Shown: positions 15,801-49,500 of the stretch, piece by piece
How positions within the stretch are numbered: position 1 is the first letter of the stretch
Layout: each line of letters begins with the position of its first letter
Position numbers and translations under genes: made by a program
Assembly: GCA_000467715.1 (NCBI GenBank)
Contig: AJFK01001074.1
Coordinates: forward strand, 1-64,000
Direction: 5' to 3'
Source: Hysterium pulicare CBS 123377
Taxonomy: Eukaryota; Ascomycota; Dothideomycetes; Hysteriales; Hysteriaceae
Length of the DNA stretch: 64,000 bases
The notes under the pieces: model-generated
What the model was told of the DNA's origin: nothing
Seen by the model: the letters and a program-made list of their open reading frames with translations, nothing else
Database searches by the model: none

Positions 15801-18282
15801 AATCGAGTAATTTTGGATCCAAGTCTTGCTTGAACTGGTCAATAATGACTGGCAGGGCTTTATCAGGCGCCACAAATGCCAAATCAGTGGCGGCGCTATA
15901 TGCTGCTTTGCTGATGGCAGGAAATTGGATGTTGGATTTGTCCTACAGACGTTAGGGCACCATGAGAGCTTAGTTTAGTGGATACTTACAGTGGTTATGT
16001 CAATGATTCGCGCCATACAATGATCCAGCTGATCCCGAGCGAGTTCTCCAGGGTCTAAGCCAACCCTCAAACAGAGATCAATCCAGGAGACCCTTGGCAT
16101 GATCTCCGGTCGAGCAAGAGGGAGGAGCTCGACAAATTGACTCTGTAATGCTTCCGGAGGAACAGTTGCATTTACCCTCTTAGAATCAGGTGGAATGCAG
16201 ATCGAGTTTATAATGAGGTATAGCTCACGAGTACCTGTTTTGGCAGTAACTGCAGCGCTGTCTTTGTCGTTCACCTCAATTAATCGGTACCAATGCCACA
16301 GACCTTCAATCGTGGTCTTCGCAACTGTTAGAGGGTTTCGAACATATGTTTCGGTGAAGATTTGAAAAACTGTTTGTTTACTAAGGGACGGAGTGCTTTG
16401 AGCAACCATTAGAAAGATGAAGGCCTGCGACCATGCGTCTCTGGCTTCTGCATTAGTCGACTCATCAGCGAGCCAAGGACCCACGGCTGACAAAGCTTGC
16501 GCGGCTTTCTCGACATCTTCTTCAGTAGAGAGTTTGGTATATACTCTGGGATTGAGCAGGAAAGATAGTTTTGGCTGAGCGACAAGAACTTGAGAAACTA
16601 CACTCGATTTCTTGTAGATTGCGGACAGCTTTGGATCATCCAACTGACGAACTTTGGACAAGAGCAAAGCGGTAACCAGATATCCTACAGTGATCAAACC
16701 AGTTTGGACAGCGGGAAGTGGATTTGCAACGACTTCTTGCCACATTTCCATCATCTTAGGTAAGCTGGCCTGGCAGAAAGACAGTATATCTGGCTTGGAG
16801 AGCTGTTCCGGAGAGAGACTCCACCAGATATTGCCAGCTCGCAGGGCCCACAGGCGACGTACAGGTAAGCGTTTGTCTGCCATGCCTTTGGTGAATGCGT
16901 CCGATATTGATGCTTCAAAGGGAACGCCGTTCTGAAGGCCATAGTTGACATGTTTTATCAACGCAGTAACCTCGGCTACAACAGCGGACTCGTTGGCCTC
17001 CTTCAATGCTACCCCAACGAGACCACTTGGGACCTTTTGGGACATCGAGGTTGAGGTAGGTAGAGCAGCGAGCATTTGCGCATGAAGAACCTTCTGGTCC
17101 GTAGTGGTAACTTTAGCCTGTTTCAATGGGTTCAGTATCTCGTCAACTACCTTCTCTAGAACCTTCTCATTATGTGACCGCGAAGCAAGAACTTCAAAGG
17201 TTCTCAATGCGCCTGCTCGAATTGCTGGGTTGCTTGATTTTATGTTTGAGAGTAAAGGCTTCAACAAGTTTTCGAGAAGGACTTCTGCTAGGTCAATGTC
17301 CGGGGGCAGAGATAGAATCATCGGGGCGACGAGGTCATTCAAGACCACTTCTGGAGCTCTCAAGAGTGCCTTTTCTATTGGAGGGATGACATCCTTCCGC
17401 AGTTCGTCTAGAGTAGCAAAATCGATGAAGAAATCGTGTAACGCATTAGAAATGTGTCCAGGAAGAAGAGTTTTTGATCCTATGTTTTCTCTGACGTAGA
17501 AGTCATAAAACTTAGGTTTCTGCTGCTCTAGAATCGGTTTCGCGTGGGGCAATCGAGCACACACCCCCGCTACTACCCCCAAGAGTACAGCACTACTGGC
17601 TGTCGGTAATGATGCTTTGCCTGTAAGGGCGTTGACGACCTTGCCGATTGACTCTTCTCCAACGGTTCTCGCCCTGAACAAAGTACGTAGAGCGCGGCGG
17701 GTTGTGATTATAGCAGAGTGCTGAACGCGAAGAGCACGCTTGGAACTTCCTGAGCCCATACATGTTTCTAAAACACGTGCATCTGCAAGTACAATGTCCA
17801 GTCCCCATGTGTTCCATTGTTCAGGCTTGGCCGCAAGCTGCTGCAGGAGTGTGGAGCACCAATTGACCAGGACGAAAGACTTGACGGGAGCGATACTGGT
17901 CTTCAAGCACTCAGTCTTCAAGAGCTTGACTATCAATGGGAGGATCGCCTCAGAATGTCCGCTAGTGATTAATGCTATTAAGCATTGCTGGACAGCATGT
18001 CGGGAACGGTTGTCGTCGTAGAGAGGGTTGGTATCGAACAATAAAACGACAAGGAAATTCAGATCAGGCGTGGAAAGAGCTGAAAGTTACAGAATATGTT
18101 AGCCTGAACTAAATCCCTCGAGCTGGAAGAAATGTTGTCTTGCTAGGCTTACAGTCATCTACAATCTTCTGTTGGAGACTAGATAGCTCAGAGATTCTGC
18201 GCTTGGTTGAGCGTGACAAAAGGGCAGTTCGTAATTCTTCACGTTTGAGGGTGTTGGCTCCACTCGCGCCAGCCTCCGCCAT
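9866..18282 (-). CDS. gcn1: Gcn1, ribosome-binding activator of Gcn2
   Basis: Gcn1 binds collided or stalled ribosomes and, with Gcn20, delivers uncharged tRNA signals to the eIF2-alpha kinase Gcn2 (general amino acid control). Eight exons (18153-18282, 15990-18079, 15261-15942, 15019-15213, 10801-14970, 10669-10750, 10478-10616, 9866-10426) sum to 8049 nt, or 2682 aa, close to yeast Gcn1 (2672 aa). The start reads MAEAGASGANTLKREELR. Almost the whole protein is alpha-helical HEAT repeats, with the eEF3-like region in the middle (for example KYAARRGAAYGLAGIVEG and WRSKKGACDSLGAMAYL). Introns are 73, 47, 47, 48, 50, 52 and 51 nt; those of 48 and 51 nt are stop-free and in frame. It is divergent from the DEAH helicase at 18703. 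Confidence 0.95.
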
Positions 18283-18702
18283 CACGAAGGATCCATCAAA
18301 AGCAAAAGGTAAAATGGCCAGAAGTTGTAAAGTTCAAAACTTTGGAAACGGTGGTGGTAAATAATTGTTCGACCGGAGGAAACTTTTCCCGACGCCAAGA
18401 TTTCGAGTGATCAATGTTGGTACCTGCTTTGGACGTTACCAACATACAACAACACGGTTAATTCCCTTCCCCATTAGGCGCAGGGTAAGCCTTCTAGAAT
18501 GTAAAGGCACGACTCGATACCTCTACAACCCTCCAACTCCTCTTTTCCCTGATCGCATCCACTCGAAATTTCCTTTTTTGCATTGGTCGTAGAGACACAC
18601 TCAGTCAAGGTTTGATATATTCTCTCCGCTCTTGCGCCCTTGCGCCCTAAAGCCGATTGAAGCTTCGCTTTTTTACGCCCTCCAAAAGTCTTCGCCGGAG
18701 CT
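18283..18702. promoter_or_regulatory. Shared divergent promoter, gcn1 / DEAH helicase
   Basis: 420 bp separate the two start codons, so both transcripts start here. The sequence is mixed with a pyrimidine-rich part before 18703. No specific operator is recognised. Confidence 0.6.
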
Positions 18703-21700
18703 ATGGTTGCTAAAAAGAAGAAAAAGCCTTTGGCAAACCCTGCACGCGGGTTTGCAACAACAAGTATTGCAAGTAAACCAAAGCAGGATGCTGTTGTTGA
18801 ATCTGCTGCGGATGTGCCCGATATACCCAAGGTTGTATCACCGGATCCGGCCCCTCCAGAGCCAGTCGGAGTTGCTTCCCAACAAGCCCGAGAGGCCCTC
18901 GAAATGACACCGGAAGAACTTGAGGCACAGCTTGAGCATGATGAGCTGCAAATTTTAGTAGAAAAGCATGCGGCAAAAATCCGTCGAGATTCCCGCCGTC
19001 AAACATTAAGAGTGCAGACGGACCGGAGAGTACTTCGTCCACAAGCTCAGATTATGACAACTCGAGATTGGTTGCCGGACGAGCTCATGCTTGATATTGT
19101 CAATTTGGCCAAACAAGAGTCAAATGATGCCAACCGCAAGGTCGACCACCAGCCTCTGATCAAGGCTTTATCAGAAGAAGACGCAATGAGCAAATTGTGG
19201 GCGTTGAAATTGGTACTTAGCGACATGGGTTTCACTGCTGATCACATTCAGCCAGTACTGAGATGGCTTTGCACTAATTCTGCCAATGTCGACCCATTAT
19301 CAACTGCCTGGGGCTTTCAAGAGAGCCTTGAGTGGCTTGCTTTAGACTATGACAAAGCCCATTTGTTGTCATACGAGGAACCTAAGAGCAAAGTAGTAGC
19401 ATCGCGCGATACTTCAAGGCCGAGTAAGAAACTTTCACAACTTTCACTTCTCCACGATGCTAGAAATAGTTAGCATTTTCAAAAGACCGTATACGCTGCG
19501 AATGCCGGCCATGATACTAGAGGTTCTGCAGACTTAACGAGGATTATATATCTCAAAAGCCCGCCTCGCCATGCTTAGAGACATTCATTCATGCTCTTGC
19601 CCAATTCCTTTTTTATTTTTTCCTGCTGCTAATATAATGTTTGCAGGTACACCACCCAACGTCAAATTGGATGGGTCGCAGAGCGCGGAGTCTAGAAGTA
19701 ATGTGGATCCAAAAGGCATCATATCAACCAATTCAAATCCCACAGGATCGGACCCTACCGATGTTGACATAAGTGATTTGGACAGTGACCTAGAGCCTGA
19801 TCAACTTGTGCCAACCTATCTAAAGCTCAAAGCCCAGTTGTTTGGTATCAACCCCGAGCTCGCGGATTCCGGGCCGCGAAGCTCCCGCAAGTCAAAAGCA
19901 CGAGACCATCGGCCTGGGCATGCAGGAAACGGTTCCACCGCCATCCGCAAGATTCAGAGCCAGCTTCAGCGGATCGAGGGCGATATTCTTTTCGAACAAG
20001 AAGTTGCAGATATACAGTGGACTCTTCAGCGGAACCAACTAGCTCAATCTACTGCAGCCAAGAAGAGGCCAGGACCACAAACATCCAACGCAGCCATACC
20101 GACGGATAGCCGAAGCTCGAACTCTCAGTCGGACTTTACCCCCAATCAGTCATCAGGATCGGATCCGGTTGTGGATGATATTTTGTTGCAGGATGACGAT
20201 GGATCATCGGAATCCGAATTACTAGGTGATATGTTCTCTGCGCTGCCCAACGAAGGACTCAACACCAAAACCGAAGAAACAGGTCCAGCTACAACGACTA
20301 TTCAATTGAGGGACTTCGGGAAACAAAGCGGTCTAAGTCCACGGAGGATTCTAGAAGAAACAATTCGAGCAAGGCAAGTGCCAAGTGTTCGTTTACAGGT
20401 TTCTGAACCTTTTGGCTGATGATTGGATAGGGATCCAGATGCCAAGCTGGCTTTTAAAGTTGTATCACCAACGACATACTCTTGTAGACACGCGGTTACG
20501 CTCACCTGGTCAAGATCTCAGGATAGCGCTTACGAATTGGAGATCCCCGGCGTGTCTTGTGACTTGCGGCCTTTGACTGTCATATTTACCGCGACCACCG
20601 TCTCCGCTGTGTCCGAGCAGCAGAGCGAGAGTTACATATCAACTGCGGCACTGTTCTCTATCTTCTCGGGATCTTCAAAGGAGGAGAGGGTGTACCTACG
20701 ACTTCCGTCGACTTGGAGAGACCTGTATAAGGACTTTCTCGAGCTCAAAAAAGATCGGGCTGACTCAGCGGACCGTGCGACAATCAAGGAATTGCGTTCC
20801 ATTATCCAGGATCAGGTTGATCAGGATGAATGCGACGGTGTAGTCCTCACAAGTCGATTTCGATTGCGGAACCAGGGCAGTGGCGCTGTTTCAGAAGCGG
20901 AAGATTCTACCCGAGAGACTATTGCCACCCCTCACGCTTCACAACATTTGAAAGATGTATGGACACAGAAAATATCAACGGCAGCTTACCAGCGGATGTT
21001 CCAGTTGCGCAGCACTCTTCCTGTATATGGATTTCGCCAATCAATTCTGACCACGATCGAGCAACACCAAGTCACTATCATTTGCGGTGAGACTGGGTGC
21101 GGGAAAAGCACACAGATTCCGTCCTTCTTACTTGAAAATGAACTGTCAAGAGGGAACAGATGCAAGATCTTTTGTACTGAGCCCAGGAGGATATCCGCCA
21201 TTTCTTTAGCCCAAAGGGTAAGCGAGGAATTGGGAGAGAATAAGAATGACCTCGGGACGCATAGATCTCTTATAGGATACGCTATTCGACTGGAGACAAA
21301 TACTTCGGCTCAAACGAGGCTCGTTTTCGCTACTGTGGGTATTGTTCTGAGAATGTTGGAATCATCCCGGGGCCTGGATGAAGTTTCTCATCTGATCATT
21401 GATGAGGTTCACGAGCGAAGGTTAGTACAAGACTAACCCCATGTTTGAGCACAGCTGATAAGTCGCAGTATTGATACCGATTTCCTACTTATCGTCCTTC
21501 AATCACTTATGGTGCGGCGACCCGAGTTGAAAGTTGTGTTGATGAGTGCCACTGTGGACGCCCAACGCTTTTCAAAATATCTAAATGACGCCCCAGTCTT
21601 GAATGTCCCTGGACGGACATTTCCAGTGCAGACACAATACCTAGAGGACGCCATAGAATTGACCCATTATACATCCTCGACGGACAAAGAACTCAACGAT

Positions 21701-23476
21701 TCCGATACAAGCGAGAACGAAGACGCTGGTGAAGACAGAGGCAAATCTGGGATACCCAACAAACTCTTTGGGTATAGCAGTAAAACTCGGAATGTTCTAG
21801 CGGAGTACGATGAGTACCGCATTGATTACGACCTCATCATGCGATTGATCGAGTACGTTGCCTGGGATCGAGAATTTAGCCAATACAGTAACGCATTTCT
21901 TGTTTTTCTTCCCGGTATCGCAGAGATTCGACAAATGAACGATATGTTAATGGGCCATCCATCGTTCAATCAAAATTGGCTTGTTTATCCTCTTCACTCA
22001 ACCATATCCAGCGAAGATCAACAGCAAGCCTTTCTCCTCCCTCCTCCGGGCGTCAGGAAGATTGTATTAGCAACGAACATCGCTGAGACTGGCGTTACGA
22101 TTCCCGATATTACCTGCGTGATTGATACAGGGAAGCATAAAGAAATGAGATTCGATGAGAGACGGCAGCTGTCTCGTCTAACTCAATCGTTCATTTCACG
22201 TGCCAATGCTAAGCAGCGCCGCGGACGTGCAGGTCGAGTTCAAGAAGGACTCTGCTTTCACCTGTTTACCAAGTACCGTCACGATGAGTTGATGGCTGAG
22301 CAACAAACCCCTGAGATGCTTCGACTGTCACTACAAGACTTGGTCATGAGGACCAAAATTTGCAAGCTGGGTGATATCGAGAAGACGCTCTCAAAAGCAC
22401 TTGATCCTCCGTCTTCGAAGAATATTCGCCGGGCCATCGATGCTCTCATTGAAGTTGATGCTCTCACAGCTCGAGAGGACCTAACACTGCTTGGTCGTCA
22501 ACTAGCAAAACTACCTTTGGACGCTCACCTGGGTAAACTTGTCTTACTGTCGGCAATTTTCAACTGCGTGGATGTCGGTATAACAATTGCCGCAATTCTG
22601 TCCTCCAAGTCTCCATTCCTCACTCCTATCGGCGCTCGACAACGCGCAGATGCCGCCAGGCTTGGTTTCAAGAAAAGCGACTCCGACCTACTCACCGCTT
22701 ACAACGCATACAGGTCCTGGAAAGCGGTGTGCTCGACTCCAGGGAGATCTGAAATCCAATTCTGCCACAAGAACTTCCTCAGTTCCCAAAATCTGAGCAA
22801 TATCGAAGATCTCAAATCGCAACTCTTCGCTTCCCTCGTCGATGCTGGCTTCGTGAAACTTTCTCAAGACGAACGAAGGGCTCTTAGCCGGTATCGCAGC
22901 ACATCTCGCTACCGAGTCTTTGTCGCTATTCCTGCCCTGTACGATGCGAACTCCACCAATGATGCTCTTGTTACTTCCGTCATCGCCGCTGCATTCTATC
23001 CTAAGATCTTAATTCGGGATGGGAAAGGCTGGCGAAACATCGCAAACAATCAATCCGTCAGCCTCGCTCCAACATCCGTAAACAAGGGAACGCAAACTGC
23101 CAAATATCTCTCGTACTACCATATTCTACAATCAAGCAACAAATACTACAATGCGCACTCCACCTCCATCATACACCCGCTTCCCATGGTTCTCCTCGCG
23201 GGCTCAGATATCGATTTTCGAATTCATGCAGGCGTCATCTCGTTGGGCAGCAATGTTCTGAGATTCGCGGTTAAGGATTGGCAAACTTGTGTTGCGCTGA
23301 AGGTGCTCAGGCAAAGGATTAAGGAAATCGTGAATGCGACTTGGAAGAATCCTGGACGGACGCTTGGGGCTAGGGAGAAGAAATGGATGGAGCTGTTCTT
23401 GAAGGTGTTTGAGGCGGAGAGGGAGAAGAGTGAGAGGTTGGAGAAGAATAAGGATTTGGGCGGGAAAGGCAAATAG
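18703..23476 (+). CDS. DEAH/DEVH-box RNA helicase, DHX29/YLR419w type
   Basis: Four exons (18703-19423, 19647-20373, 20431-21420, 21469-23476) give 1481 aa. The basic N-terminus MVAKKKKKPLANPARGFATT is typical of this family. A UBA-like segment (DMGFTADHIQPVLRWL) follows near residue 175, and then an RWD-like middle. The helicase core has motif I GETGCGKSTQ near 700, motif II DEVH near 806, motif III SAT and motif VI QRRGRAGR. HA2 and OB-fold regions follow. By family it is a translation-linked helicase (DHX29 remodels the 40S subunit on structured 5' UTRs); in this organism that is inference. Intron 2 is of GC-AG type (AG|GCAAGT) and intron 1, 223 nt, is unusually long. Intron 3 is 48 nt. 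Confidence 0.9.
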
Positions 23477-24013
23477 GTCTCACGGTTATGGTGCAGGAGT
23501 ACCGTTCGTGCATTGGTGAGATCGGGCACCACTAAAGTTAACGTTAATCTCTTAATCGCTTGATTTGACTATGACATGAGATTCATGCTTTGATCTCGAA
23601 CTTGGGGTTATCCGCTGAGGCTTTGCGAATCATAGCCAACTTCCTAAAATTCCTATCAGCTGCTGACAATAGATCCCTATTACTGCAAGTATCACCGCTC
23701 CTTCGTTGGTGACCCCCTCTGAAATCTACCTCACTCACCCTTCAAGATCCGCCATTTCCACATCTACATCTTCTGAAACTGCAGACGCTAAGTAGACCAG
23801 ACTGCTGACTTGGAGAAAATACATCCAGTTTGGAAAATCTTGTTTATTATCGTCTTTCACGCGACTTCAGATAAGGATTTGGTTTCGACCTTATAATATT
23901 AAGTTCTGATACTGTCGTAAATAGGTTCTAACCCATTTCGTAAAACGACGCGCAATATCCCCTATACATCCGACTCCAGATTACACCCTCCCTTTTTTCA
24001 TTTTTGGTCGTCC
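23477..24013. other. Convergent 3' region between helicase and msh2
   Basis: 537 bp between two stop codons, AT-rich in the middle. It should hold both 3' UTRs and terminators. No gene or repeat is seen. Confidence 0.5.
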
Positions 24014-26940
24014 CTAAAGTGCCAAAATCCCCTTAAAGAACGGATTCTCCAACAAAGCCTTGTCCCCCTTAACAAGTTCCCTCATCCGCTCCACCTGCTG
24101 TTTCTTCGTAAGCCCCTTAGTCTCCACCTCCTCCTTCCACTTCACCAGCATATCCTTCAAAAGCACACTTCCCTCCTCCACATCCTTCGGACTCGCAGCC
24201 ACATATCCGACCTCATGTTTCCCCGAGAAGTCCTCTAATTCGTCTGCCTTTCGCTTCGCCATATTAATGACCTTCTGCGGGAAGCGGACGAGCTCGGCGA
24301 CGTGGATGCCGAAGGATTGATCTGAGATGCCTGGTTCGACTTTATATAGTAATGTAACCTCTCTCTTCTTCTTTTGCTTCGGGTCGTTGTCGGTGGAAGG
24401 CGAGTCAGAAATATGTGCGACAACATGCAGGTTCTGCACCTGAGGATATGTATCCACAAGGGCGGTCAATTCATGAAAATGCGTGGCGAAGAGGGCAAAA
24501 GCGCCGATTTCTTTTACGATGTGTTCGGAAATGGCCCATGCGAGCCCGAAGCCATCGTATGTAGAAGTACCACGACCTAATTCGTCGATGATTATCAGTG
24601 ATTCCTTAGTAGCGCTCTTCAAAATGTTTGCGGTCTCTAGCATCTCTGCCATGAAGGTCGAGACGCCTTTGAGTTGTGAGTCTGAGGCTCCAACGCGGGC
24701 GAGTATGGAGTCGAAGATAGTGAGTTCTGCTTCTGAGCAGGGGACAAAACATCCGACCTGCGCCATCAAGGCAATGACGCCGATTTGACGGATATATGTA
24801 CTTTTACCACCCATGTTCGGTCCTGTGATGATTATGAACTCTGACTTCCCTCTTTCTAAGCTTACGTCATTTGTTATGAACTGGATATCATCTTGCATCT
24901 CCATACACGGGTGACGGGCTTCTTTTAAGATCGTGTTTCCTGTTCCTCGAGGGTGGATGGTAGGGCGGCAGTAAGCGGTTGGAGCATGAACGGAGACATG
25001 GGCGAAGGAGACGATGACATCCAGGTGAGCGAGGACGGCAGCGAGCTTTTCGACGACGGGGATGTAGGAGGAGGCGACGCTCACGACCTCATTTACAAGA
25101 CCCGATTGCGTTCTATTGTAATTTTCTGAAAGCTGGTCAAATTCTCTTCTGAGCTCTTGCAGATTTGAGGTCGTGAAGTAGACACCATTCTTCTGTGTCG
25201 AGCATTCTTGGTACTGTTTCTTTCCCCGAATGCAACCCGCTTCAGTCCGAGTAAGACGGAAGCACCACCCATGAACACGGTGATTTTCGAGGAAGAGCTT
25301 CTTTTCGGTGTCCTGGTTGAGATCGTTGCCAACGCGCCGATGTTCGACCGTCATCTCGTATTTAATTTTGTCCAGGCGTTTGCGGATGGTCCGTAGCGAG
25401 TCGTCGAATTCTGGCTTGATGATGAATTCGTGATTGTCGAGGGCTTCGAGATCGACCGTTGTTTCAACCATCTCGAGGAGTTTGGCGAAGGAGTCAGAGT
25501 ATTCCTGTTATCAAAGTCAGAATGGAATGAGGAATTTAAAAAATTGAAAAAGCTTACGCGGAGTTTTGAGGTATACTGTTCGTCTAGAGGGTCTTTGTAT
25601 TTCTCATCCATGACCGCTTCAAGCGTACCCAAGAACCCTGGAAGGCGGATTGCAACTTGATATGCCCTGACTACATCCTCCAAATTTGCCACCTTTCTTT
25701 GGAATTTCTTCGCCAGCCTGTAGAGATCTGGAATTGATCGTAGATGCTCTTCTTGCATAGTTTGCCTAAGCTCGGTGTCCTCCACAAACGCCTCAACTAA
25801 CTGTTGTCTCCGCTCGATATCCTTCACGTTCATCAAAGGTTGTTTTAGCCATTGTGCTAGCAGTCGGCTCCCCGTTGGTGTTTTACAATGATTCAGAAGA
25901 CCGTAGAGGCTCATTGTCTTCGAACCGTCCCTTGGTCCTGGCATCAGGTTGAGAGCTTTCAGCGCCGCGGCGTCGAGTTTCATATACTGAGACAGATCAT
26001 GCTGGTAAAGTTGATATTGTCCAAAGTTGGAAGGATCAGACATGACTCCGAGATACTTGATCAGAGCTGCTGCAGATCCCATGGCCAGCTTCAGCTCCGT
26101 CTGCGGGAGAGTTCCAGCAGCCCGGTCATCTCGCAATAATCTCGAAAAATCTTGCTCAATGTCCTTTGTACCGAAATCCGCAAAACCTCGCTCCGCTACG
26201 GCGCATCCACAATTATCCGCAATCGCCCGTAACTTGGCAAGTTCGACATCCTTCTTGTTTGCATCTGCCTGAATCAGACATTCCTTGACGCCCAGCTGAA
26301 TAAGAAGCGATTCGAAGTTCGAGTACAGGTCGTTATCTAGGAACTCGCTGACGCCCAATTCCCTCACACTGGCATCGGCGAAGCACACTCCTACATTTCT
26401 GGCCTCTGATGCTCGTGCAGTGACTTTGACTGCGAGGATGATAGGTGCGTTCTCGATTTGTCCGCCGAGTTCGTCTTCAATGTCTTGGAGATTACCTGGA
26501 GATGCCTGTGCTTATATTAGTCTTTAACCCTTCCAGTGAGTTGTGCTCCATGGTCCCACCTGTTTCGTGATTTTCCAATCCACTCTCTTTCCCGAATTCT
26601 GCCATATCTCCACTCTCTTACTCAATTTGAATAGAGCTTCCCTGAGAAAATTTCGAAAGACCATTACAGTCAGGGTAACGGAATCAAGAGGGGGCTGACG
26701 GCCAAGTTTGCGGAGGACAGAGGTTGTTTTATAGACCTGGTTTTGAACTTAACATTGTTCGTAGCGATCCCCAACGGTGCTTACTGTTCTAGCGATAAAC
26801 ACAGCATCCTCCCCATGAGCCGAATAGTAGTCCCCGCGATCGAATAAACGTATAGTATCATCATTCTTTTCAGGAAGGTTGCGGTAGAAGCGAACGAAGC
26901 TTGTTTCGTCTTCTTCTTTGAGTTCTGGTCGAGAAGCCAT
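24014..26940 (-). CDS. msh2: DNA mismatch repair protein Msh2
   Basis: Msh2 pairs with Msh6 or Msh3 to recognise mismatches and small loops in nuclear DNA and recruits MutL proteins. Exons 26785-26940, 26560-26736, 25558-26505 and 24014-25504 give 923 aa, close to human (934) and yeast (964). The start reads [15 protein letters not shown]. The lever/clamp region contains [18 protein letters not shown] and QASPGNLQD. The ATPase has Walker [15 protein letters not shown] near residue 657, the ABC signature [14 protein letters not shown], Walker [16 protein letters not shown] and the His switch ATHFHEL. The C-terminus, with KADELEDF, is the helix-turn-helix dimerisation region. Introns are 48, 54 and 53 nt. 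It is convergent with the helicase and followed upstream by a 558-bp gap. Confidence 0.96.
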
Positions 26941-27498: not shown

Positions 27499-28710
27499 TC
27501 ACGCAGCCTTGATGTACTCATCAAACCAATGCACAGCCTGCAAGAAAGCCTGCTCCTTCGCAAACCTTACGCTCTTCTTACTGATATCCGCGCGGACGGC
27601 AAAGCCGTGTTCGACGTCCGAGTACAGGCTGATCTGATATGGGATGCTCATCTTCTCGAGGATGTCTTCGGTTTCGCGACGCTTGGCTGCAGGGAAAATT
27701 TGGTCGGTTTCTGGTAAATGTATTTAGTAGGGGAAGGTAAGCAGGTCCATGTGCTAATGCCCATATCCAATATGCTGTGATAAGTGCATGATAGCTCGGA
27801 GTAGCCATCGGTTACCCAATTCACTGGATACATATACAGATGCAGACGTGGGATACTTTATACAAGGATAGATGTATCTTACCGGCAGCAGCAATGCTCA
27901 AAGGACCTGCACAGCCCTCGACCTCTTCCCTATCCACGAAACTAGGATGCGCTGTGTATCCCACGTCCAGTTTACCCTCTTTTAAGAATCGGCACACGTA
28001 TTTGCCGCCGAAGCAGTATCCAACACCACCAATGCGCTTGCAGCCGAGCGGACCCCGCATCTCCTTCAGAGTAGTTTCAATAATGGGGTCGACTTGCGGT
28101 GGTAGGTGGTTTTTAAGCCAGTCCATGAGCTGGAAGTCGGCAGGGCGGTTGAGAGCGACGGGGTCACCATTAAAGAGGTCCGGCATTACCACGAAGTAGC
28201 CGTTGGCAGCGAATTGGTCGGCAATGCTGGGAAAAGATGAGTCAGAGGGCTTTTGTTCAAAGCCATATTGAACGTCGACACTTACAGCTGAACATTGATG
28301 AAGTCGATACCAATCACATCGGTAACAAGAAGAATGGCATTCTGAGTGCTCTTATTTTTAGGGTAAGAGAAGTAGGTTCGAACTAATCGTATGTCAGCAT
28401 CTCCCATCCTGGCTTCGTCGCCCATGGTGAGTGCCATAAGTCCTCGTTCTGCAGACTTCCATTGGCACACAGGTTAGGATAGATTCTGTTCCATATGCAA
28501 ATGTCGGGCTAGCCTCAAGGATAGCAACTTGCTTTAACGCCTGGCGGTAAAGAAGGTAGTAGACGCAGACCTATCCTCCGAAAACGACGAATTATGACAC
28601 CCTTGTGGCTAGGAGTACATACTATCACCAATCTTCTTGATCTCTCCAACAGCGGTGCCTTCATGCTTAACACCAACAGTGCAGCAAGCCGCAGGAGGAT
28701 GGGAGGTCAT
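27499..28710 (-). CDS. Dienelactone hydrolase family protein
   Basis: Exons 28623-28710, 28286-28382, 27883-28226 and 27499-27710 give 246 aa, the usual size of this alpha/beta hydrolase family. The start reads MTSHPPAACCTVGVKHEG. The nucleophile elbow is GGVGYCFGGKY, with Cys as nucleophile as in dienelactone hydrolases; SDVEHGF supplies the catalytic His, and an Asp lies earlier in the C-terminal half. In bacteria the family opens dienelactones in chlorocatechol breakdown; fungal substrates are mostly unknown. Introns are 240, 59 and 172 nt, two of them long for this genome. Inside the 240-nt intron an ATG in frame with exon 2 (near 28436) could start an alternative transcript with a different N-terminus of about 18 residues. 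Confidence 0.9.
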
Positions 28711-29236
28711 TTGTAGGTTGTCCTTTGTGCTGAGTATGGTAGAGTGGAAGGAGATGTGTACGTGCCGATTCGAGAAGAGAGGGTGGTCTTAATAGAAGCA
28801 GAGCGTAGTGAAAGGACAGTCAAAGTGGAAGTGCCGCCGCCTTCGGGCCCTTTGTATAAAGATGGTGGAGCTCCAGGCTGTCTTCACATACGTCAGGGTC
28901 CATGTCAATACCGAGGAATGCCCCTCGGTGGGGCAACGAAGAAAATATAGGCAGGGGTCGAGGTGAACTAGCGTTAGTTGCCGGATTCGGCAATGTTTGC
29001 TAGTGGATTGTTCGGAGGAATAGGCGATGAAAGGCCGAGTGCTGGATTTGTGTGCATTCTATTTGTGAATCTGTGGCATATTTGAAAAGGACGGACAGCT
29101 ATTGATTCCGCATATTGCTTGTGTATTACATTTGTAAGGAGTTGTTGTAGCATACTTTCCATACCTCGCATCAGTGACGGTTAGGCGGACCTGGTGGGAG
29201 TTTGTGCTAAACCGCTTGACTACCTGTTGTGTGTAT
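28711..29236. other. Hydrolase promoter and 3' region of the LENG1-like gene
   Basis: 526 bp with no supported gene. A minus-strand frame continuing beyond 29237 is a shifted frame of the neighbouring gene, not a separate one. Confidence 0.45.
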
Positions 29237-30544
29237 TCACGTTCGAGCAGCCTCGAAAGTAGATTGATGCTCCCCGCACCGTCCTTCGCCACCTCGATGA
29301 TTGCTGGATCTGTGATGAATTCTTTCTCTACTGCGCTCTCGGCTTCGGCTCGGTCTCCGGGCATGACGATGCGATGAAGTACGCTCATGCTTCCTATCCC
29401 TACTTCTGCTCCTATGATGCCTATGCCTTGTATCCTTGTTCTCAATCGCGCCATATGCCGAAGGTGTAGGTTGTCCGAGCTGAGCTGCGCGCTTTCCTAA
29501 CATCTCTTTCGTCTGCTCCTCAGAGGGCCCAGTTTGATCTTTATCGCGCTGACTTCCATGTCTCCTGGGCGTATCCAGAGAGAAGTTCTCCAGGTCATCC
29601 TCATCATCTATGCGCTTCTTTCTCTTCCCGTGTCTTTGTCGCCGATCTTCCCTTTCCCTCGCGGCTCTCAATTCACGAACTTCCCTATCTCGTTCGTCGT
29701 CCCACCGCTTCTTGTCTCTCTCGGCTTGCTTCAACTGGTTTTGAGCCTTTTGCATAAAGGCGAATGGGTCAGTGGTGCTGATGCGGGCCTGAGCACGCTC
29801 TTTGCGGCGTGGATCCTCTCTTCCCCAGACGTCCTTGCTCTCGAAACCTGGATAATCCAGCATCTTCTTCTGGCCGGGATTAGATACTTCTACCTCAGGT
29901 GCACGAGCCCTTTTTGACGTATACCATGGATTCTCAAGGCCGCCTTTACCGGCAGCATTCGAAAACCGCATGGTGTATTGATCCTCCAAATCCCGTTCCT
30001 TCTTTTTCTTTTCAGCCTCTGCCTCAGCATTCTTTTGCTGCTTTATGGCGGCTTTCTCATCTACAGGGAACAGACTAATATTGCCAGCATGATTCGTCAA
30101 AGGCACGTCAAGCTCAGGCTTCCTTAGCCTCATGGTAGGCACATCGGCATCTTCATCTCGTGGAGCTGTGACAGACTTCGCAAGTCTGATGTCTCGGTCC
30201 GTATCATCTTCCCCAGCAAGCCGACGGCGTTTTCGATCATGTCCAAAGCCCGACTTCTCTGGTCTGGCGGTCGACTTCTCACTATTCTGTGGGTCTGTCT
30301 TAGGTAGTGGGGGAGGTGTGACGCCTCGAAGAATGGCCAGTCGGCGTTGAGCATCAATTTCGTCCAGACGCCGTTCTTCTTCCGCTTCGCGTTCTGCTGC
30401 GGCTGCTTCGTCGGCCTTGACTCGAGCAATGTTGTCTTTGTTGTAGACGTTCCATGATTTCTTGCCCAGGAGATGACTGGTGAGCGTTAGTGGTATTTAC
30501 AGTGAGCAAAGCCACCCGGCTTCCGTGGTAACTTACAGTGGCAT
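29237..30544 (-). CDS. Cir_N-domain, LENG1-like splicing-related protein
   Basis: A tiny first exon (30537-30544, 8 nt) and a long second exon (29237-30476) give 415 aa. The join restores MPLHLLGKKSWNVYNKDN, the N-terminal Cir_N motif of LENG1/CWC25-like spliceosome-associated proteins. A charged helical part follows (ERDLEDQYTMRFSNAAGKGG, ENPWYTSK), then coiled-coil-like arginine/glutamate stretches, and an RS-rich tail (HRSRSRDRKHERTSSHRH). Nuclear and spliceosome-associated by family. Residues near 319-351 (GPSEEQTKEMLGKRAAQLG and following) duplicate residues 39-71 of the neighbouring Prp1 at DNA level, an unexpected feature inside this protein. The intron is 60 nt with a CTAAC branch site. 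It is divergent from the gene at 31377. Confidence 0.85.
29432..29529 (-). repeat. 98-bp block shared with prp1 (inverted copy)
   Basis: Read on the minus strand this block matches 33,042-33,139 on the plus strand with 9 mismatches in 98 positions and a 36-nt identical run. Similarity stops abruptly on both sides. It is in the coding frame of the LENG1-like gene and encodes GPSEEQTKEMLGKRAAQLG and following residues. Confidence 0.9.
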
Positions 30545-31376
30545 GTTGAGAGTGGTGGATGAAGGTGGGGGTGAAGAAAGGTACTTTGTACATATACCTC
30601 CACCCAGTGAATCTAGACTTGATTCAAGATAAATACTTTCAGAAAGAGAGTCGACGACATAGCAACAGCAAAACAATGCCCAGTGTTCCAACTTCCAAGG
30701 TGCTGGATCGTTGGTGAAACAACGGCTGCAGGTGTTGATGTGTTGGCGTGGGTGATGTGCAAGGAAGAGACGTGGAGAGAGACCGAAACAGGCCCTGCCT
30801 TACGCCACCACTTGTGCACCCACGTTGCAGGCATTGTGCTACGATTAATGCAGGCTAGCCATGGGGTGCTATTGTTAACATCGGCTCTCCGCGTGGACTC
30901 GATCCAGGCCAGGAACACTCCGGAATGCTGCCACTTGGTATTGCATCTGCCTGCATTGCGGAGAAAACAAATTAATCTCCGCTTCTAGAGAGATCGCGCC
31001 ACCATCCTCCTCGAGACGGGCCGCTGGCAATCGCAAAACAACCAGTTGACGACAAAAGCGCACAAAACACCTCTGTGACCACACGCCCGAACCCACGGAT
31101 ACGACATGTACGACACCGAAGCCTCCATTCGTTGACAGAACGCTAGGCCCCGAAGCCCAGCTCAACCGACAACCCGTTTCTTTTGAAACAGCCTTCCGCG
31201 AGACGTTATCTATTGTCAGCGCCGCAAGTAGAGAGAGATAGAAAGGACAGGACAGGACGCATTGCCTAACGTCAGCCCTAGAGAGATCCGCGCCTCATAT
31301 TATATCTCTCTTGCTAGCTGAACAAACAGAACATCTTTCAATTCTCTCTTCTCGCGATCGCCTTGATAGCTGCAAG
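30545..31376. promoter_or_regulatory. Divergent promoter region, LENG1-like / 31377 gene
   Basis: 832 bp between divergent start codons. Open stretches on both strands (about 30,613-31,165) have no recognised domain. No regulatory motif is identified with confidence. Confidence 0.45.
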
Positions 31377-32230
31377 ATGCCTACCTACCTCGTCCACGGC
31401 TTCCGCTGGCCGCGCCCTCTAATCCGCATCCACATCATTCTTCAAAATCTCGACGACGCCGCTGCAGAATGGCTAATGGCTCCTGCGACGACCTCTGCCT
31501 TAACTGAAAACTTCCAGAAACTGCATCCCGAGCTTATGCAATCGCTCCCCTCACTGCGCTTTATTGAGCAATACGACCCCGAAGACACAACGAGGAAGTC
31601 GGAACCCTTCGCCTACGTCTGCGACCAGGTACACGAGGTCCAATTGGGGGTGGACGTGGACGAAGTACGAGGGAAAGGTGTCGCAAACGAGGCATGGGCC
31701 GCATTGGTGGATCTAAGGGATAAGATAGCTCCTGGTGAGAAGGTTGCATGGTTTGTAGTAGTCAATGGGGATACAGAAAGATGGGCACCCCCAACTGTAG
31801 GAATGTTAGAAGGGAGTGTTGGTGGAAGCGTGGGAAGCCAAGGGAGCCAAATAAGTCCTGATAGTGGGGGAAGTAGTGTGACGCAGCAAGATCTCAGTCC
31901 AAATGGTGAGACGGTAAGTTTGTGAAGTTCCTATCCCCTCTGTTCCCATGGAGAGTATACCTTGCTGAGCATTACAGGCTGACGGCTGGGTCCCAATACA
32001 GAAGCGCCAGTCGAAAGGCTTTAAGAAGTGGTTTGGAGGCGGAAAGATAAGAAGAGCGAAAAGGTTAGTGCTTCACTGTCATCTCTTCTCAATAGACACT
32101 GGCAATAGACTCTGACGTGTCTTGGATCTATAGTATGAAAGACCTCCAATCGGAAACAATAATCAAAAGAGTACCATCTACCCCACCACCTCTGCCTGCC
32201 AATGCAACAGCACCTGGAACAGCTGTCTGA
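31377..32230 (+). CDS. Conserved fungal protein of unknown function
   Basis: Exons 31377-31913, 31978-32063 and 32134-32230 give 239 aa. The product begins MPTYLVHGFRWPRPLIRIHI and continues LQNLDDAAAEWLMAPATT, a strongly conserved start that I associate with a family of uncharacterised proteins in filamentous ascomycetes. The middle (VWFVVVNGDTERW-like strand, GEKVAWFVVVNGDTERWAPP) looks like a compact alpha/beta fold. A Ser/Gly-rich linker and a basic segment (KRQSKGFKKWFGGGKIRRAK) follow. There is no signal peptide or membrane segment. Introns are 64 and 70 nt with standard ends and all phases agree. The function is not known to me. Confidence 0.85.
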
Positions 32231-32927
32231 AACTTTGAGGCAATCTAATACTTGTTTGGCGAAGTGACTGGCTGTCAACCTTGAGCAAGGTGTCTCGGTT
32301 TGTATTGGCGCATGACTGAGCGGATTTGGAAAAGGAAAGTCAATGGGTTGGTTCTTCAGTGCACTGGGTCGGCTATGTTCGGACTTATCTGTATATCTTT
32401 AGCATGTTGTTATCAGCAACTTACCATATAGTTTGAATAAACGAATTTACAACTTAGGCAAGAGAAATTCCGCAATGCTTCCAAACATGAAGTGAGATAG
32501 AGCGTAACAATGCCTGGTTCTTTACTCCTCGGTTACCTAGACTGTTTAAACACGGTGAAACAAATGAAATCCAGTTCCCATCCAGAAGTTTGTTCCAGGT
32601 TTGAACCAGCAAGTGTGTCCTAATTTTCGATACATGGGGGAAAAAGTACAGTGAAGCATCCTGGCATGTGAAGTAACATTTTAAGACTAGCGTCGATGAC
32701 TCATCCAAATTTCGAGATCACCTTTACAGCGAAACTTCAACCTACCATAAACCCTCAACTTTGCCGTCTTCAAGGCGCCACCTCAACCATTCTTCACCTT
32801 CCTCTTTGGCGGTCCATCGCGAACTGGGTATTGTTCTCTAGTATCTTTCCTTGAAGCGCCCTAGCTGTATAGCAAGGTTACGACCGATAACGAAATTTAA
32901 AGCAGTCTGCGAGCATCTACCCTCATC
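32231..32927. promoter_or_regulatory. Intergenic region upstream of prp1
   Basis: 697 bp holding the 3' UTR of the preceding gene and the prp1 promoter and 5' UTR. No gene is seen. Confidence 0.5.
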
Positions 32928-35831
32928 ATGTCTGGCAGACGAGACTTCCTATCTATGGCTGCGCCCGAGAACTATGTAGCAGGTCTTGGGCGTGGTGCAA
33001 CAGGTTTTACGACCCGTAGTGATTTGGGACCTGCCCGTGAGGGGCCTTCAGAGGAACAGATGAAAGAGATGTTAGCAAAGCGCGCAGCTCAGCTCGGACA
33101 ACCTACACCTTCAGCATATGGCGCCATCGAGAAGAAGGAGGAGGATGATGATGACGATCGCTTCCAAGATCCGGACAACGAAGTTGGGCTTTTCTCCAGT
33201 GGCATGAACTACGATAGGGACGATGATGAGGCGGACCGAATCTACCAAGAGGTAGACGAGAAAATGGATAAAAGACGCCGCGTAAGGAGGTTAGTGCCCC
33301 CCTTGTCTTTTGCCCTCTACCCTTCTTCTCCCCTAGTTTAATTAATGTATTTATCGTCAACCTTTGATTTTGGTCGAACAGATACCGACTGTTTTCGCCT
33401 CTATAGGGAAGCTCGCGAGAAAAAGGAACGAGAAGAATACGAAAGAAATAATCCTAAAATCCAACAACAATTCGCGGACCTCAAAAGAGCCCTCGGTAGT
33501 GTATCGGAAGAAGAATGGGCTGCCTTGCCCGAAGTAGGCGACATGACTGGAAGAACGAAGCGAGCCCGCGAGGCGCGGCAAAACAATCGGTTTTACGCAG
33601 TCCCAGATAGCGTTATAGCGGCTGGAGCTCAGGCTGGACAGCTCGATACTTCGATTTCGACAGATGAAGGGGATGGCACCATGACCAACTTCGCCTCGAT
33701 TGGAGCAGCACAAAAGTCTGCTCTCCAGGTTCGGCTAGACTCGGCGGCGTCCAATGCCTCAGGCACACAGACAGTGAATGGCGGTACATCGACGTCGGTG
33801 GATCCTCGTGGCTATATTACAGCGCTGGAGAAGTCTCAAGTCACAGCAGGAGAAGTCCCAGTTGAGGATATCAACAGAGCTCGGTTGCTCCTCGAGTCGG
33901 CAGTGAAGACGAACCTACGGAACGGACCCGGCCATGTGGCTCTTTGCCGGCTTGAAGAATTCGCTGGCAAGAGCCATACCGCCAAAAAGGTCATTGCTCG
34001 AGGCTGTGAACTCTGTCCTCATTCAGTCGACTGCTGGGAAGAGAATATCCGAATCAATCGCGAAAACCTCCACAATGCCAAGATCATTGCTGCGAATGCT
34101 ATCAAGCTGAATCCTAAAGCTATCGCTCTTTGGAGAGCTGCTATCGACTTAGAAAGCACAGTCGCAGCACGAAAGAAGGTCACACGCCAAGCACTCGATT
34201 ACAACCCGCAAAGCGTTGAATTATGGAAGACTTTGATAAACGATACCGAAAACATTGAGGATGTCAAACTTCTCTTTGCAAAGGCAGTGGAGACTGTAAG
34301 ATTATCCGAAGAGCTCTGGATATCATACGCTCGTGTCTGCGATCCGGATACCGCACAACAAGTCCTCAATGCCGCCCGCAAAGCTATTCCAACGAGCTGG
34401 GCTATTTGGGTCCAGGCTTGTAGGCTACAGGAACAGCTCGGAAAGAACGACATGACAGATCGAGTCATGGATCGTGCAGTTAAAGCACTGGTCAAAGAAA
34501 ACGCCATGTTGAAACGAGAGGAGTGGATCTCCGAGGCCGAGAAATGCGAAGATGAAGGTGCCATCCTGACATGTGCAGCCATCATCAAAGCAACATTGTC
34601 ATGGGGTCTAGACGAGGACGACGAGCGGAGAGACGTATGGATACAGGATTCGAAGGAGAGTGTCGCAAGAGGCAGATATGCAACCGCTAGAGCCATCCTC
34701 GCCCACTGCATCCGTGTTTTTCCAAACAGCAAGGCCGCATGGCATGCCGGTGCTGACCTTGAGAAACGCTACGGTAATACAGAGGACCTACTCAATATCC
34801 TCGACCGTGCCGTCAACGCCTGTCCGAAATCAGAATCTCTGTGGCTGATGTACGCCCGCGAAATGTGGAACAGCGGTGAAGCAGACAAGGCTCGAGAAGT
34901 CCTCGCTCGCAGTTTCGTTCAACTACCTGGCAACGAAAACATCTATACGCGTGCTGTTGAACTCGAAGTAGACGCAGAAGAATACGGAAAGGCTCGCGAC
35001 CTGCTTCAAATCGCTCGAGACCAAGCTGGAACCGATCGTATCTACATAAAATCCGCAGTCCTGGAACGGCAACTTGGCAACACGGAAGCAGCTCTAGATC
35101 TCATCAACCAAGGTATTCAAATGTGGCCGGGAAGCTGGAAACTCCACGCTATCAAAGGTCAACTCTACGAATCGATGAGCAAACTCCCGCAAGCACAGGA
35201 AGCCTTTTCGATCGGCACACGCGCAAATCCTAAGGCTGTACCTCTGTTTCTCCTCCTCTCACGCATTCAAGAAAAGCAAGGCGCAACGGTCAAAGCTCGC
35301 TCGACACTCGATCGTGCCCGTCAAGCTAATCCTAAGAACCCCGAGATTCTCTGCGAGAGTGTACGCTTGGAACGCCGAGCAGGCAACCTACCGGCCGCGC
35401 AAAAACTCATGGCGGTCGCCCTACAGGAATGTCCAAACTCGGGCCTCCTCTGGACGGAGAAGATCATGTATCTCGAATCGCGCACGCAGCGCAAACCGCG
35501 TGCCCTCGAAGCCATCAAGAAGGTCGAAAACGACCCTATGCTTTTCGTCACAGTGGCACGCATCTTCTGGGGCGAACGCAAACTGGATAAAGCGGCGTCG
35601 TGGTTCGAGAAGGCGATCGTGCTAGATGCGGATTATGGCGATGGTTGGGCTTGGTATTTCAAGTTCTTGAAACAACATGGTACGGAAGAGAAGGTCGGCG
35701 AGGTGCTTGCAAAGATGGCGATTGCGGATCCGAGACATGGTGAGGTTTGGCAGGCTGTTAAGAAGGATCCGAAGAATACGGGGAAGAGTGTGGAGGAGGT
35801 GCTGAAGATTGCGGTTGAGAGGTTGGAGTGA
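32928..35831 (+). CDS. prp1: Pre-mRNA splicing factor Prp1/Prp6 (U4/U6-U5 tri-snRNP)
   Basis: Prp6 (Prp1 in fission yeast) bridges U5 and U4/U6 in the tri-snRNP. Exons 32928-33289 and 33407-35831 give 928 aa, normal for the family. The PRP1_N domain opens the protein: NYVAGLGRGATGFTTRSD, then FQDPDNEVGLF and YDRDDDEADRIYQ. The rest is a long array of HAT/TPR helical repeats, for example CPHSVDCWEENIRINRENLH, AIDLESTVAARKKVTRQAL and WGERKLDKAASWFEKAI. The 117-nt intron uses GTTAGT and CTATAG. Residues 39-71 lie on the DNA block that is repeated in inverted orientation inside the LENG1-like gene 3.5 kb upstream. Confidence 0.96.
33042..33139 (+). repeat. 98-bp block shared with the LENG1-like gene
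   Basis: Plus-strand partner of 29,432-29,529. It encodes GPSEEQMKEMLAKRAAQLG and following residues within PRP1_N. A segment of this kind sits at this place in many fungal Prp1 proteins, so this is probably the source copy (inference). Confidence 0.9.
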
Positions 35832-36626
35832 GGATGATATATTTGCGGATGGAGCTTTATGAAGATATTATGGGTTGTTCTCCTGAGTGGATGGACTGGC
35901 ATAATATGTAGATTATAAGTCTGGCATCACCCATGCGTTAGATTACTAACACAGTCTGTGACAGAACCCGAGGCTTCGCTCCGACCCCGTGATGACGTTT
36001 CTTGCTGTCTGCATACACTGCTTGACCTAGGGATTGTGGTCCTGGAGGAGTATCTAGCCCTCGGCGGACATTAAAAATGTCGCACGCATAAGGTTCTATT
36101 GTATCGTATGCAGGAAAACAAAACTATAAACTCTCTAATTATCACACCCCACGTTGAATATAACCTGCAGTTCAACCATGTTTCATACTCGAAATTGTGT
36201 TGTGTCATACCATACATATAGCAACACCAATAGCCACGCCCTGCAAAGTCCAGCATCTCTCTCTGTGATCCCATCTCATTAAAATTGAAAAAAAAACCTA
36301 AAATTCCATGCCATGCCACACGCCGTGCTATGCCATTCCATTCCATTCCAGTCCATGGGTATCAGAAAAAGCCAATAAGAAACCATTTGTCCCATGCGAC
36401 CGACCATGCAGTAGAAAAAACGCCTTGTGCCCCTATCAGACAAATCAAACACGATGATACAAACCCATCTCCCCCGAAACCCCAAAAAATTCAGCATGGC
36501 GAATTTGACACGCAGAGATAGATAGAAAAGGTAGATCGGTAGTAAAGCGTCGAGAACTGACGTCCAGCGGATGATCTCGACGACGGAAAGGGAGTAGGAA
36601 GAGGAGGGAAATGGGGGAACAATGTT
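35832..36626. other. Convergent 3' region, prp1 / hfi1
   Basis: 795 bp between two stop codons. It holds a short run of repeated CATTC/ATTCC and ATGCC units near 36,305-36,355 and A-rich tracts. Open stretches here have no recognisable product. Confidence 0.5.
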
Positions 36627-43531: not shown

Positions 43532-45824
43532 TTAGTAAGCATGTCGGGGAGCACCGAAGTCTACGTCTGGTAGCCTTGGTGCCCTGCCGGCTGGTGGGCT
43601 TATGCTCCTCTCTCCACTCGCACTTCGCATGTGACTTCGACCACCAAAGCTGGCTGCGTCGCTAAGGAGGTGCTCTTGGCCGTCTCCATGGAATCTTCGA
43701 GCACCGCCATAAGCTGTCGGTTGCTCAGTGAGAGGAACTGCCTCGTAGCCACGTACGCCGAAAGGAGCTGGAACGGTGTGATTGTGCTTGTACTCAGTCG
43801 GGTCCATGAGGAGAGAGTTACGAGCGTCAAGAGGGGTGAGAGTGTCGAGATCACGCATTTTCTCTGGAACAATGGTATTAGTAAAAAGGTTGGAGCAAAA
43901 GTTTCGTGATGATTGAGACTTACCGGCTTCCTTTCTCTTCTTGCGATGAGGGTTGTCACGGCAGCAGATAATGATTGCATTCACAGCAATCAAGATAGCG
44001 AGCAACCCGGTCAGAACGGCCTGCATGACTACGAGGACAAGACCAGTGATCGTCTTCGTCGTCTGTGCAACGCCTAGCTCCTCGACAAACACCAAGATAC
44101 AAACGACGGAGAGCACGCGAACGACTTGGATAATGATGTTGATCCAGTTACCAGACTTCAGCGAGAAGGGTCGAGACCAGAGGAGGAGGACCAGAAGCAA
44201 AGACTCAATGATGAGCTGGCCAGCCGATTGCACAAGACCGTGGCCATCGGCTCCTGCAATAACGCATCCTTTGGCGAACATGTAGACAATGGCAGGAACG
44301 AAGAGCCACCAATAGCTTTTCTTGTAATTTTCGTAGAAGAGACTGTATTTTCTCCAAACTTCTTTGTCGTCATAGAGAGCTGAGGAATCGCCCTCCAGTT
44401 TTTTATAACGGTGAGCAATTTGCCAGATCTTCCAGGTGAAGAAAAGCAGGATGGCGGTGAATATTACAAGAGTAACCCCTGCAAGTAACTTGGCCGCCCA
44501 TGAGTCACCGTTCGTGAATTGATAGATGCAGTAAAGGGTCCAGACACCGTAGAGGAGCAAGATCAAGTTAGTAATGGTCTTTGCCAGGAGCCACCAGTAT
44601 CGTTTGCGGAAGCCTGTCAAGCTTTTGGGGAATGATCCGAAAAGTGCCCAAGTTTCGAGGATGACCTTGAAGAGTAGGATACCAACGGTGATCGCAGCGA
44701 TGACAATGGCGAAGATGAGCAAAACGGTCATGAACGTGTTCGCTTGAGGGATCGAGAGTTCTTCAACATAACCTTGGATGCCGTGAACCACGTGCATCAC
44801 CTTGTTATCTCCAGCGCCCGTGCTATTACCGTCCGTTCCGTTGACCGAAGTATTGATAGAGTCCCGAGCGAAAAGAAGGAAGGTGTCCAATCCACGTCTG
44901 GTAATGCTGGTATTGGTATTGGTTCCATCACTATAGAGCAAAGTGGCGTTCTTGAGGAAGGCCACACTGTCTGTGGTTAAGTTCCCACCAGTATGATTAC
45001 GGAAGGTGTCGATCGATGTTTGCATTCCTTCCCAATAGATGAGACCACCGCTGAAGCCGAAATTCTTCGAGAAGCTCCTGTAGATGCTGGGATATTGAAC
45101 GCTGAGCATGCCATTCATAGCCATGGACTGGAACCAACCCATGACTTCGGTAAAGGTCGGGCTGGACGTTGGTGTGCCCGCATGACCAGCAGTTCCGAGG
45201 GCGGAAATGCCGGATAATAGGAGGGCGGCTCCAGCGATACCAGCAGCAACATATGATACAGCTGGGACGTTGAAGGATTTCCCGTTGTTCACAGCCGATG
45301 TTATACACGCTAGCTCTGCGCCACCGTCTAATGCCTTTAGTTGTAGAGTTGCCTGCCCATCAAGATCGGGAACACTGAAAGCGATGGAAGGGATTTGCGA
45401 AACGAATGAATCAGGGATGTCTTGCGTGCCTTCAGCAGCGAAGTCGCCAGCGGGTACTGAAGATGTTAGTCTGAACATATATGTAGCCTTGTTATACGAA
45501 CGTACCTGGACAGAGCTGTGCTACAAAATTCTCCTTGTCGCAAGGTTTGAAGTCTTTCTGATAGACCTGTTTGCCATAGGCTGTAACGACCATCGAGGCT
45601 GTAACATTCTGTGATTTTGCGCTCGTTCCGGCAACGTCGAAAACGATCTTCTTGGTCGCTCGGTTAAATTCGATGTTTAGTTTGTTGACTTTGATGTCTG
45701 AATTGTCCGAACATGTACTGAACCCGTCGGTCTTAAGTATGTCGGCAGCGAATACCCCTAGAGGAGCAGACGCTAGTAATAAGAAGGGCGCGAGCATTGT
45801 TGAATATGTACTATGAACTCTCAT
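43532..45824 (-). CDS. Flc/TRP-like multispanning membrane protein
   Basis: Exons 45506-45824, 43924-45456 and 43532-43863 give 727 aa. After a signal peptide (MLAPFLLLASAPLGVFAA; the start may be the first or the tenth residue) comes an ML-like lumenal domain (ADILKTDGFSTCSDNSDIKV). Next is a glycosylated region with many N-x-S/T sites, and then about eight hydrophobic helices such as TFMTVLLIFAIVIAAITVG, TVGILLFKVILETWALFG, WWLLAKTITNLILLLYGVW and ITGLVLVVMQAVLTGLLAIL. This is the fungal Flc2/Flc3 and Pkd2-like TRP family, linked to FAD import into the ER, calcium and wall integrity; which applies here is unknown. The cytosolic tail is Ser/Arg/Pro-rich. The last intron (60 nt, TACTAAT branch site) is stop-free and in frame. 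Confidence 0.93.
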
Positions 45825-49158: not shown

Positions 49159-49500
49159 TGCATATTGGAAAGGCTGATATTCGTCCCACAGCCCGAATAG
49201 GACGGTTTTAAGGAAAGTGTTGAACACGGAGTGTAAAGGATATTGGTGTCCCTGCCCACTGCCTAGATAAGAAGGTTTTAAGAAAAAGTGTTGAAAGCGG
49301 AGTGGAAAAGGATATCGGTCTTCCTTCCCATTGCCTAACTAGGAAGGTTTTTGGAAAAAATGTTGAAACCTGTATGAAAATGGTAACGGTCCCAGATCTG
49401 AAGCGTGGTCCGTGCAACTGCCTGAATAGGAAGGTTTTAGGGGAAAGTGTTGGAAACGGCAGAAAATGGTAACGGTCCCAGAAGCAACGCTTCCGAGGAG
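49159..49500. repeat. Imperfect minisatellite, 70-87 bp units
   Basis: Four units start with GAAGGTTTT or a close variant at 49,201, 49,271, 49,343 and 49,430, each followed by AAAGTGTTGAA-like sequence and ending in GCCTGAATAG or a variant; a partial unit precedes them at about 49,159. Periods are 70, 72 and 87 bp. The last two units share AAAATGGTAACGGTCCCAGA. The open frame on the minus strand through it is a by-product of the repeat. Confidence 0.85.

Follow-up and report, generated by a model that had tools for sequence, protein, structure and literature searches.

A 98-bp coding block shared in inverted orientation by the prp1 and LENG1-like genes of Hysterium pulicare: a probable local templated insertion

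Two splicing-related genes of Hysterium pulicare CBS 123377, prp1 and a LENG1-like gene, lie on opposite strands of contig AJFK01001074.1 (assembly GCA_000467715.1) and carry nearly the same 98-bp piece of coding sequence in inverted orientation. How did one short coding piece come to be present in both genes, and does it matter for either protein? These questions were addressed by analysis of the first 64,000 nucleotides of this contig (i.e. the window) and of the draft genome from which it derives. The block probably arose through one local templated insertion of prp1 DNA into the LENG1-like gene, by break repair or template switching.

Identity, edges and copy number of the block

A repeat search of positions 28,000-34,500 detected one inverted pair, the 98-bp block, whose arms are 91% complementary and separated by 3,511 nt:

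29,433-29,530, minus strand: LENG1-like copy of the block; residues 319-350, following a charged stretch and preceding the arginine-serine (RS)-rich tail
33,042-33,139, plus strand: prp1 copy of the block; residues 39-70, inside PRP1_N

The two copies are identical at 89 of 98 positions, without gaps, and their longest identical stretch is 36 nt. Both values had been given by the first-pass annotation and were reproduced, as was its placement of the plus arm; its minus arm (29,432-29,529) was one base low and yields 22 of 98 matches. Local alignment of approximately 700 bases around each copy stopped exactly at the block edges, and the 120-base flanks scored like shuffled sequence, with 14% and 77% of 300 shuffles reaching the observed score, in agreement with the claim that the flanking DNA lacks similarity. 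When the window was compared with itself by BLAST, the block pair was recovered with an expect value (E) of 3.2e-32. Both copies are translated in the same phase of their gene models, as had been annotated. The identity of 89/98 bases together with the sharp edges indicates copying at the DNA level and not protein convergence, as first proposed, and a common DNA origin of both copies is very likely.

The copies reside in the following genes, for which exons were joined by conceptual splicing:

29,237-30,544, minus strand: LENG1-like (Cir_N-type) gene; exons 30,537-30,544 and 29,237-30,476; 415 amino acids
29,240-29,432, minus strand: RS-rich tail of the LENG1-like product, continuing the reading frame of the block in translation
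32,928-35,831, plus strand: prp1 (Prp6 orthologue); two-exon model 32,928-33,289 and 33,407-35,831; PRP1_N and HAT/TPR repeats

Judged by its sequence, the plus-strand gene is orthologous to Prp1/Prp6. Splicing connects 33,289 with 33,407 without a change of frame, PRP1_N scores 170.2 bits against a Pfam cut-off of 22.4, TPR_14 was detected in eight stretches and the best PDB match is human Prp6 (E 3.5e-40). The location of the prp1 copy within PRP1_N was as annotated. The minus-strand gene encodes, on its PDB match, a relative of the LENG1-named chain of entry 9s2g: residues 1-96 match this 'Uncharacterized protein C5E4.10c (LENG1)' with E 1.3e-5, the sole PDB hit with E no higher than 1. The match output gives no organism; we take C5E4.10c to be a Schizosaccharomyces pombe gene name. 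No PMC literature on SPAC5E4.10c or on 9S2G was found. Removal of a 60-nt intron (30,477-30,536, GTAAGT...CAG) yields one open frame. The description of the product as a LENG1-like Cir_N protein with the block ahead of an RS tail was upheld for the LENG1 match and the position of the block, but Cir_N (residues 10-44) scores only 21.0 bits, slightly under the cut-off of 22.6. As to possible removal of the block from the LENG1-like mRNA by splicing, inspection by eye revealed no typical donor ahead of this copy.

The genome of the same strain (a draft of 37,200,777 bases in 596 contigs) was searched with the block as protein and as DNA. Among the best candidates, which alone are scored by this search, matches occurred at two places only, and a repeat family was ruled out on this count. 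Both copies are on one 143,650-base contig and have different flanks. Four stretches of the window (22,094 bases in total) were also compared with the whole genome: the block alone linked 32,700-36,000 with 28,900-32,700, and 10,751-18,041 and 18,700-26,400 matched themselves only. For background, self-comparisons were made of the window and, one by one, of 24 other genome stretches, together 303,650 bases; they gave 11 similar pairs at E <= 1e-3. The 98-bp block was the sole inverted pair and the sole pair of at least 60 nt at 85% identity or more; the other ten were direct, four of them (all in one stretch) lying more than 1.5 kb apart and six closer together. Copies of this kind are uncommon in the sampled sequence, the pair counts giving no rate as the window was chosen in the first-pass annotation partly for the block pair.

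Divergence and direction of copying

Six of the nine differences between the copies are silent, one more than the approximate count first given, and three are replacing (T/M, G/A and N/K, LENG1-like/Prp1); seven fall at third codon positions. Silent (dS) and replacing (dN) changes per site, obtained by simple counting with three alternative assumptions on transition bias, were 0.27-0.34 and 0.045-0.048, respectively. Silent divergence near 0.3 resembles that between species and not polymorphism. The description of the copy as recent is not supported by this dS. Free evolution of both copies would give at least six silent changes out of nine in 0.9-2.2% of cases (P 0.009-0.022). With prp1 fixed at the protein level and the LENG1 copy free, this outcome is expected in 9-17% of cases and is not rejected. 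These values suggest that one copy or both have been constrained at the protein level, for which Prp1 alone could account; constraint on the LENG1-like copy is possible.

The assignment of prp1 as donor and the LENG1-like gene as recipient, made in the first-pass annotation, is plausible, and on balance favoured, on the indirect evidence of comparison with related proteins, of which those from fungi were the C5E4.10c (LENG1) chain and budding yeast Prp6 only. Residues 5-103 of human Prp6 align to residues 4-104 of Prp1 with a block stretch of about equal length and different sequence, and the C5E4.10c chain scores -6.2 bits against the block region; both results favour this direction. Reliance on them is weakened by two further results: budding yeast Prp6 aligns up to Prp1 residue 31 and again from residue 95 with approximately 34 residues fewer between, and the block contributes little to PRP1_N, which falls from 173.8 to 167.4 bits (-6.4) upon its removal. 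Taken by itself, the block matches PRP1_N in neither of its copies. Since the domain loses so little and the block alone is unmatched, this segment is, by its sequence, classed as a variable linker in Prp1. To our knowledge fungal Prp1 proteins usually carry a segment of this kind, as the first-pass annotation also stated, a view that is not a result of this analysis.

Searches with Prp1 as query found no fungal sequence in a viral collection (three peptide-pattern stretches, none confirmed) or in a prokaryotic genome collection (37 stretches, none confirmed), as expected for collections holding viruses and prokaryotes. A degenerate DNA pattern for the peptide GRGATGFTTR had no match in the viral collection and one in the prokaryotic genome collection; this match, in a Gemmatimonadetes bacterium record, was taken as chance, approximately one being expected by a rough estimate.

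Templated insertion and its alternatives

A single event would suffice to produce the arrangement observed, i.e. two copies with no third found, sharp edges, a shared frame, local inverted placement and identity extending to most silent sites. One short piece of prp1 coding sequence would have been copied into the neighbouring LENG1-like gene, either through break repair that used nearby DNA as template for the patch or by a replication fork switching template. Under uniform placement, a site drawn at random from the genome would be within 3.5 kb in approximately 2 of 10,000 cases (by arithmetic), and a local template is therefore favoured by the 3.5-kb spacing. As the block lies within one prp1 exon, an RNA template is also possible. 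The piece would have been tolerated because it was inserted in sense orientation and in frame, in a linker ahead of the RS tail; this charged and presumably disordered linker would accommodate extra residues. The copies would then have diverged to approximately 0.3 silent changes per site. The main consequence would be an added peptide of 32 residues, which may form a short helix and need not function.

Several observations weigh against this account. No empty site has been seen in a relative from which the direction, the singleness of the event and the junctions (microhomology, lost bases) could be read. A block of 98 bases does not fill whole codons, so that either the true insert was longer or shorter or the host gene lost bases. 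For a functionless copy, six silent differences out of nine is rather high. The block is weak within PRP1_N and budding yeast Prp6 has no stretch of such length, so that its age in Prp1 is not established.

The alternatives differ in what they add to, or substitute for, one copying event. It is rather unlikely that the copied peptide was subsequently kept by selection, with the Prp1 N-terminal helix serving the LENG1-like protein as a docking peptide for a Prp1 partner. Such selection would fit the excess of silent differences, which is improbable if both copies are free, but a constrained prp1 and a free LENG1 copy yield as many in an appreciable fraction of cases, as calculated above. A helix was modelled within the block in both protein surroundings (residues 31-44 in the LENG1-like fragment used for modelling and 42-56 of Prp1), giving weak support to a short helix in both proteins; these AlphaFold models are of single sequences and of low confidence (mean predicted local distance difference test scores of 58.5 and 59.0, predicted template modelling scores of 0.14 and 0.19, respectively). 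Participation of the Prp1 N-terminus in spliceosome activation in fission yeast (PMC4701394) also favours selection, but conservation is weak in the part of PRP1_N that holds the block, and the block by itself retrieved nothing from the PDB with E of 10 or less. Maintenance of the likeness by repeated gene conversion appears improbable. Inverted copies 3.5 kb apart could pair and the central 36 nt are identical, but if nine differences are placed at random, a run of at least 36 arises in 13% of cases (P 0.13). Hence the block holds no tract of unusually high identity such as conversion would leave, and the ongoing conversion proposed earlier is without evidence. Silent divergence near 0.3 further argues against recent homogenisation of the whole block, and 98 bases is short for efficient conversion.

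Copying from the LENG1-like gene to prp1, or ancient presence of the segment in both proteins, is very improbable. The weakness of the block in PRP1_N and the shorter budding yeast Prp6 are in line with either, but human Prp6 has a stretch of about equal length at this place, the C5E4.10c (LENG1) chain has no positive alignment at the block and 89 of 98 bases would hardly be kept under ancient sharing. Least credible of all is an assembly artefact or chance. The assembly is a draft of many contigs, but nine differences concentrated at third codon positions and different flanks on one contig speak against an artefact, and chance is ruled out by the E-value of the pair.

Templated insertion was also compared with known systems. 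In chimeric proteins formed by partial gene duplication, as generally understood, part of one coding sequence likewise enters another; unlike these, the block is only 98 bp, lies within an existing exon and leaves the recipient frame otherwise intact. Ectopic gene conversion between paralogues would, from general knowledge, likewise keep silent and replacing sites alike, but prp1 and the LENG1-like gene have no similarity beyond the block and the run test found no conversion signature. The closest kind is the class 2 templated sequence insertion, in which a short piece templated elsewhere is likewise patched into a break (PMC5110952). As in that class, a second copy of the insert exists elsewhere in the genome with unrelated flanks. 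Class 2 insertions were described in human genomes, with distant templates and a suggested RNA origin (PMC5110952), whereas the block is an in-frame coding insert whose template would lie 3.5 kb off and whose junctions are unreadable.

Possible function and neighbouring sequence

Short deletions in the N-terminus of Prp1 stall pre-catalytic spliceosomes in fission yeast, and this region, in contrast to the repeats, is not highly conserved (PMC4701394). Prp6 (Prp1) is present in pre-catalytic complexes and released on activation (PMC4825928), and human LENG1 is tabulated as a C-complex protein predicted to be 100% disordered (PMC3415423). It is conceivable, if doubtful, that the LENG1-like protein gained a working Prp1 peptide whose putative helix docks on a surface vacated by Prp1, providing a hand-over between splicing stages; such a hand-over would then stem from a 98-bp patch of DNA. 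The present results speak neither for nor against the new contact between spliceosome proteins that the first-pass annotation suggested. No segment shared by Prp1 and LENG1 was found in excerpts of the PMC literature on LENG1 and the spliceosome or on Prp1 and LENG1. If the peptide is kept in relatives, a tiny DNA patch would have moved a binding segment between parts of one molecular machine, pointing to a site usable by both Prp1 and LENG1. If it is not kept, the block would be a well-preserved example of repair adding short coding pieces to linkers cheaply. As the copies share a phase, a crossover between them would swap both protein ends without a frame shift.

The two genes had been described as adjacent, which is not strictly so, as they are separated by one further feature:

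31,377-31,925, plus strand: open frame of 182 amino acids from the ATG at 31,377, between the two genes

This open frame has no Pfam match and is, from its sequence, probably the first exon of a gene continuing by splicing. It sits within the segment that an inversion between the block copies would flip.

Elsewhere in the 37.2 Mb assembly, no 5.8S ribosomal RNA scored over threshold (39 of 1289 candidates scored), which may reflect the assembly or the method; the control search gave a match in 9 of 14 control genomes, of which those named are prokaryotes. The window also contains genes with FRQ, HET and TRP domains, a content which, from general knowledge, points to a filamentous ascomycete. 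The TRP-channel family gene is at 43,532-45,478, and there is an imperfect tandem array with a 72-bp unit at 49,185-49,482, for which Tandem Repeats Finder reported 2.6 copies (49,185-49,368) and self-similarity reaches 49,482. A HET-domain open frame (49,734-51,680, minus strand) ends, on its 3' side, a few hundred bases before the array, and the HET gene is adjoined by a gene for the Frequency clock protein FRQ (52,487-55,120, minus strand, 427 bits).

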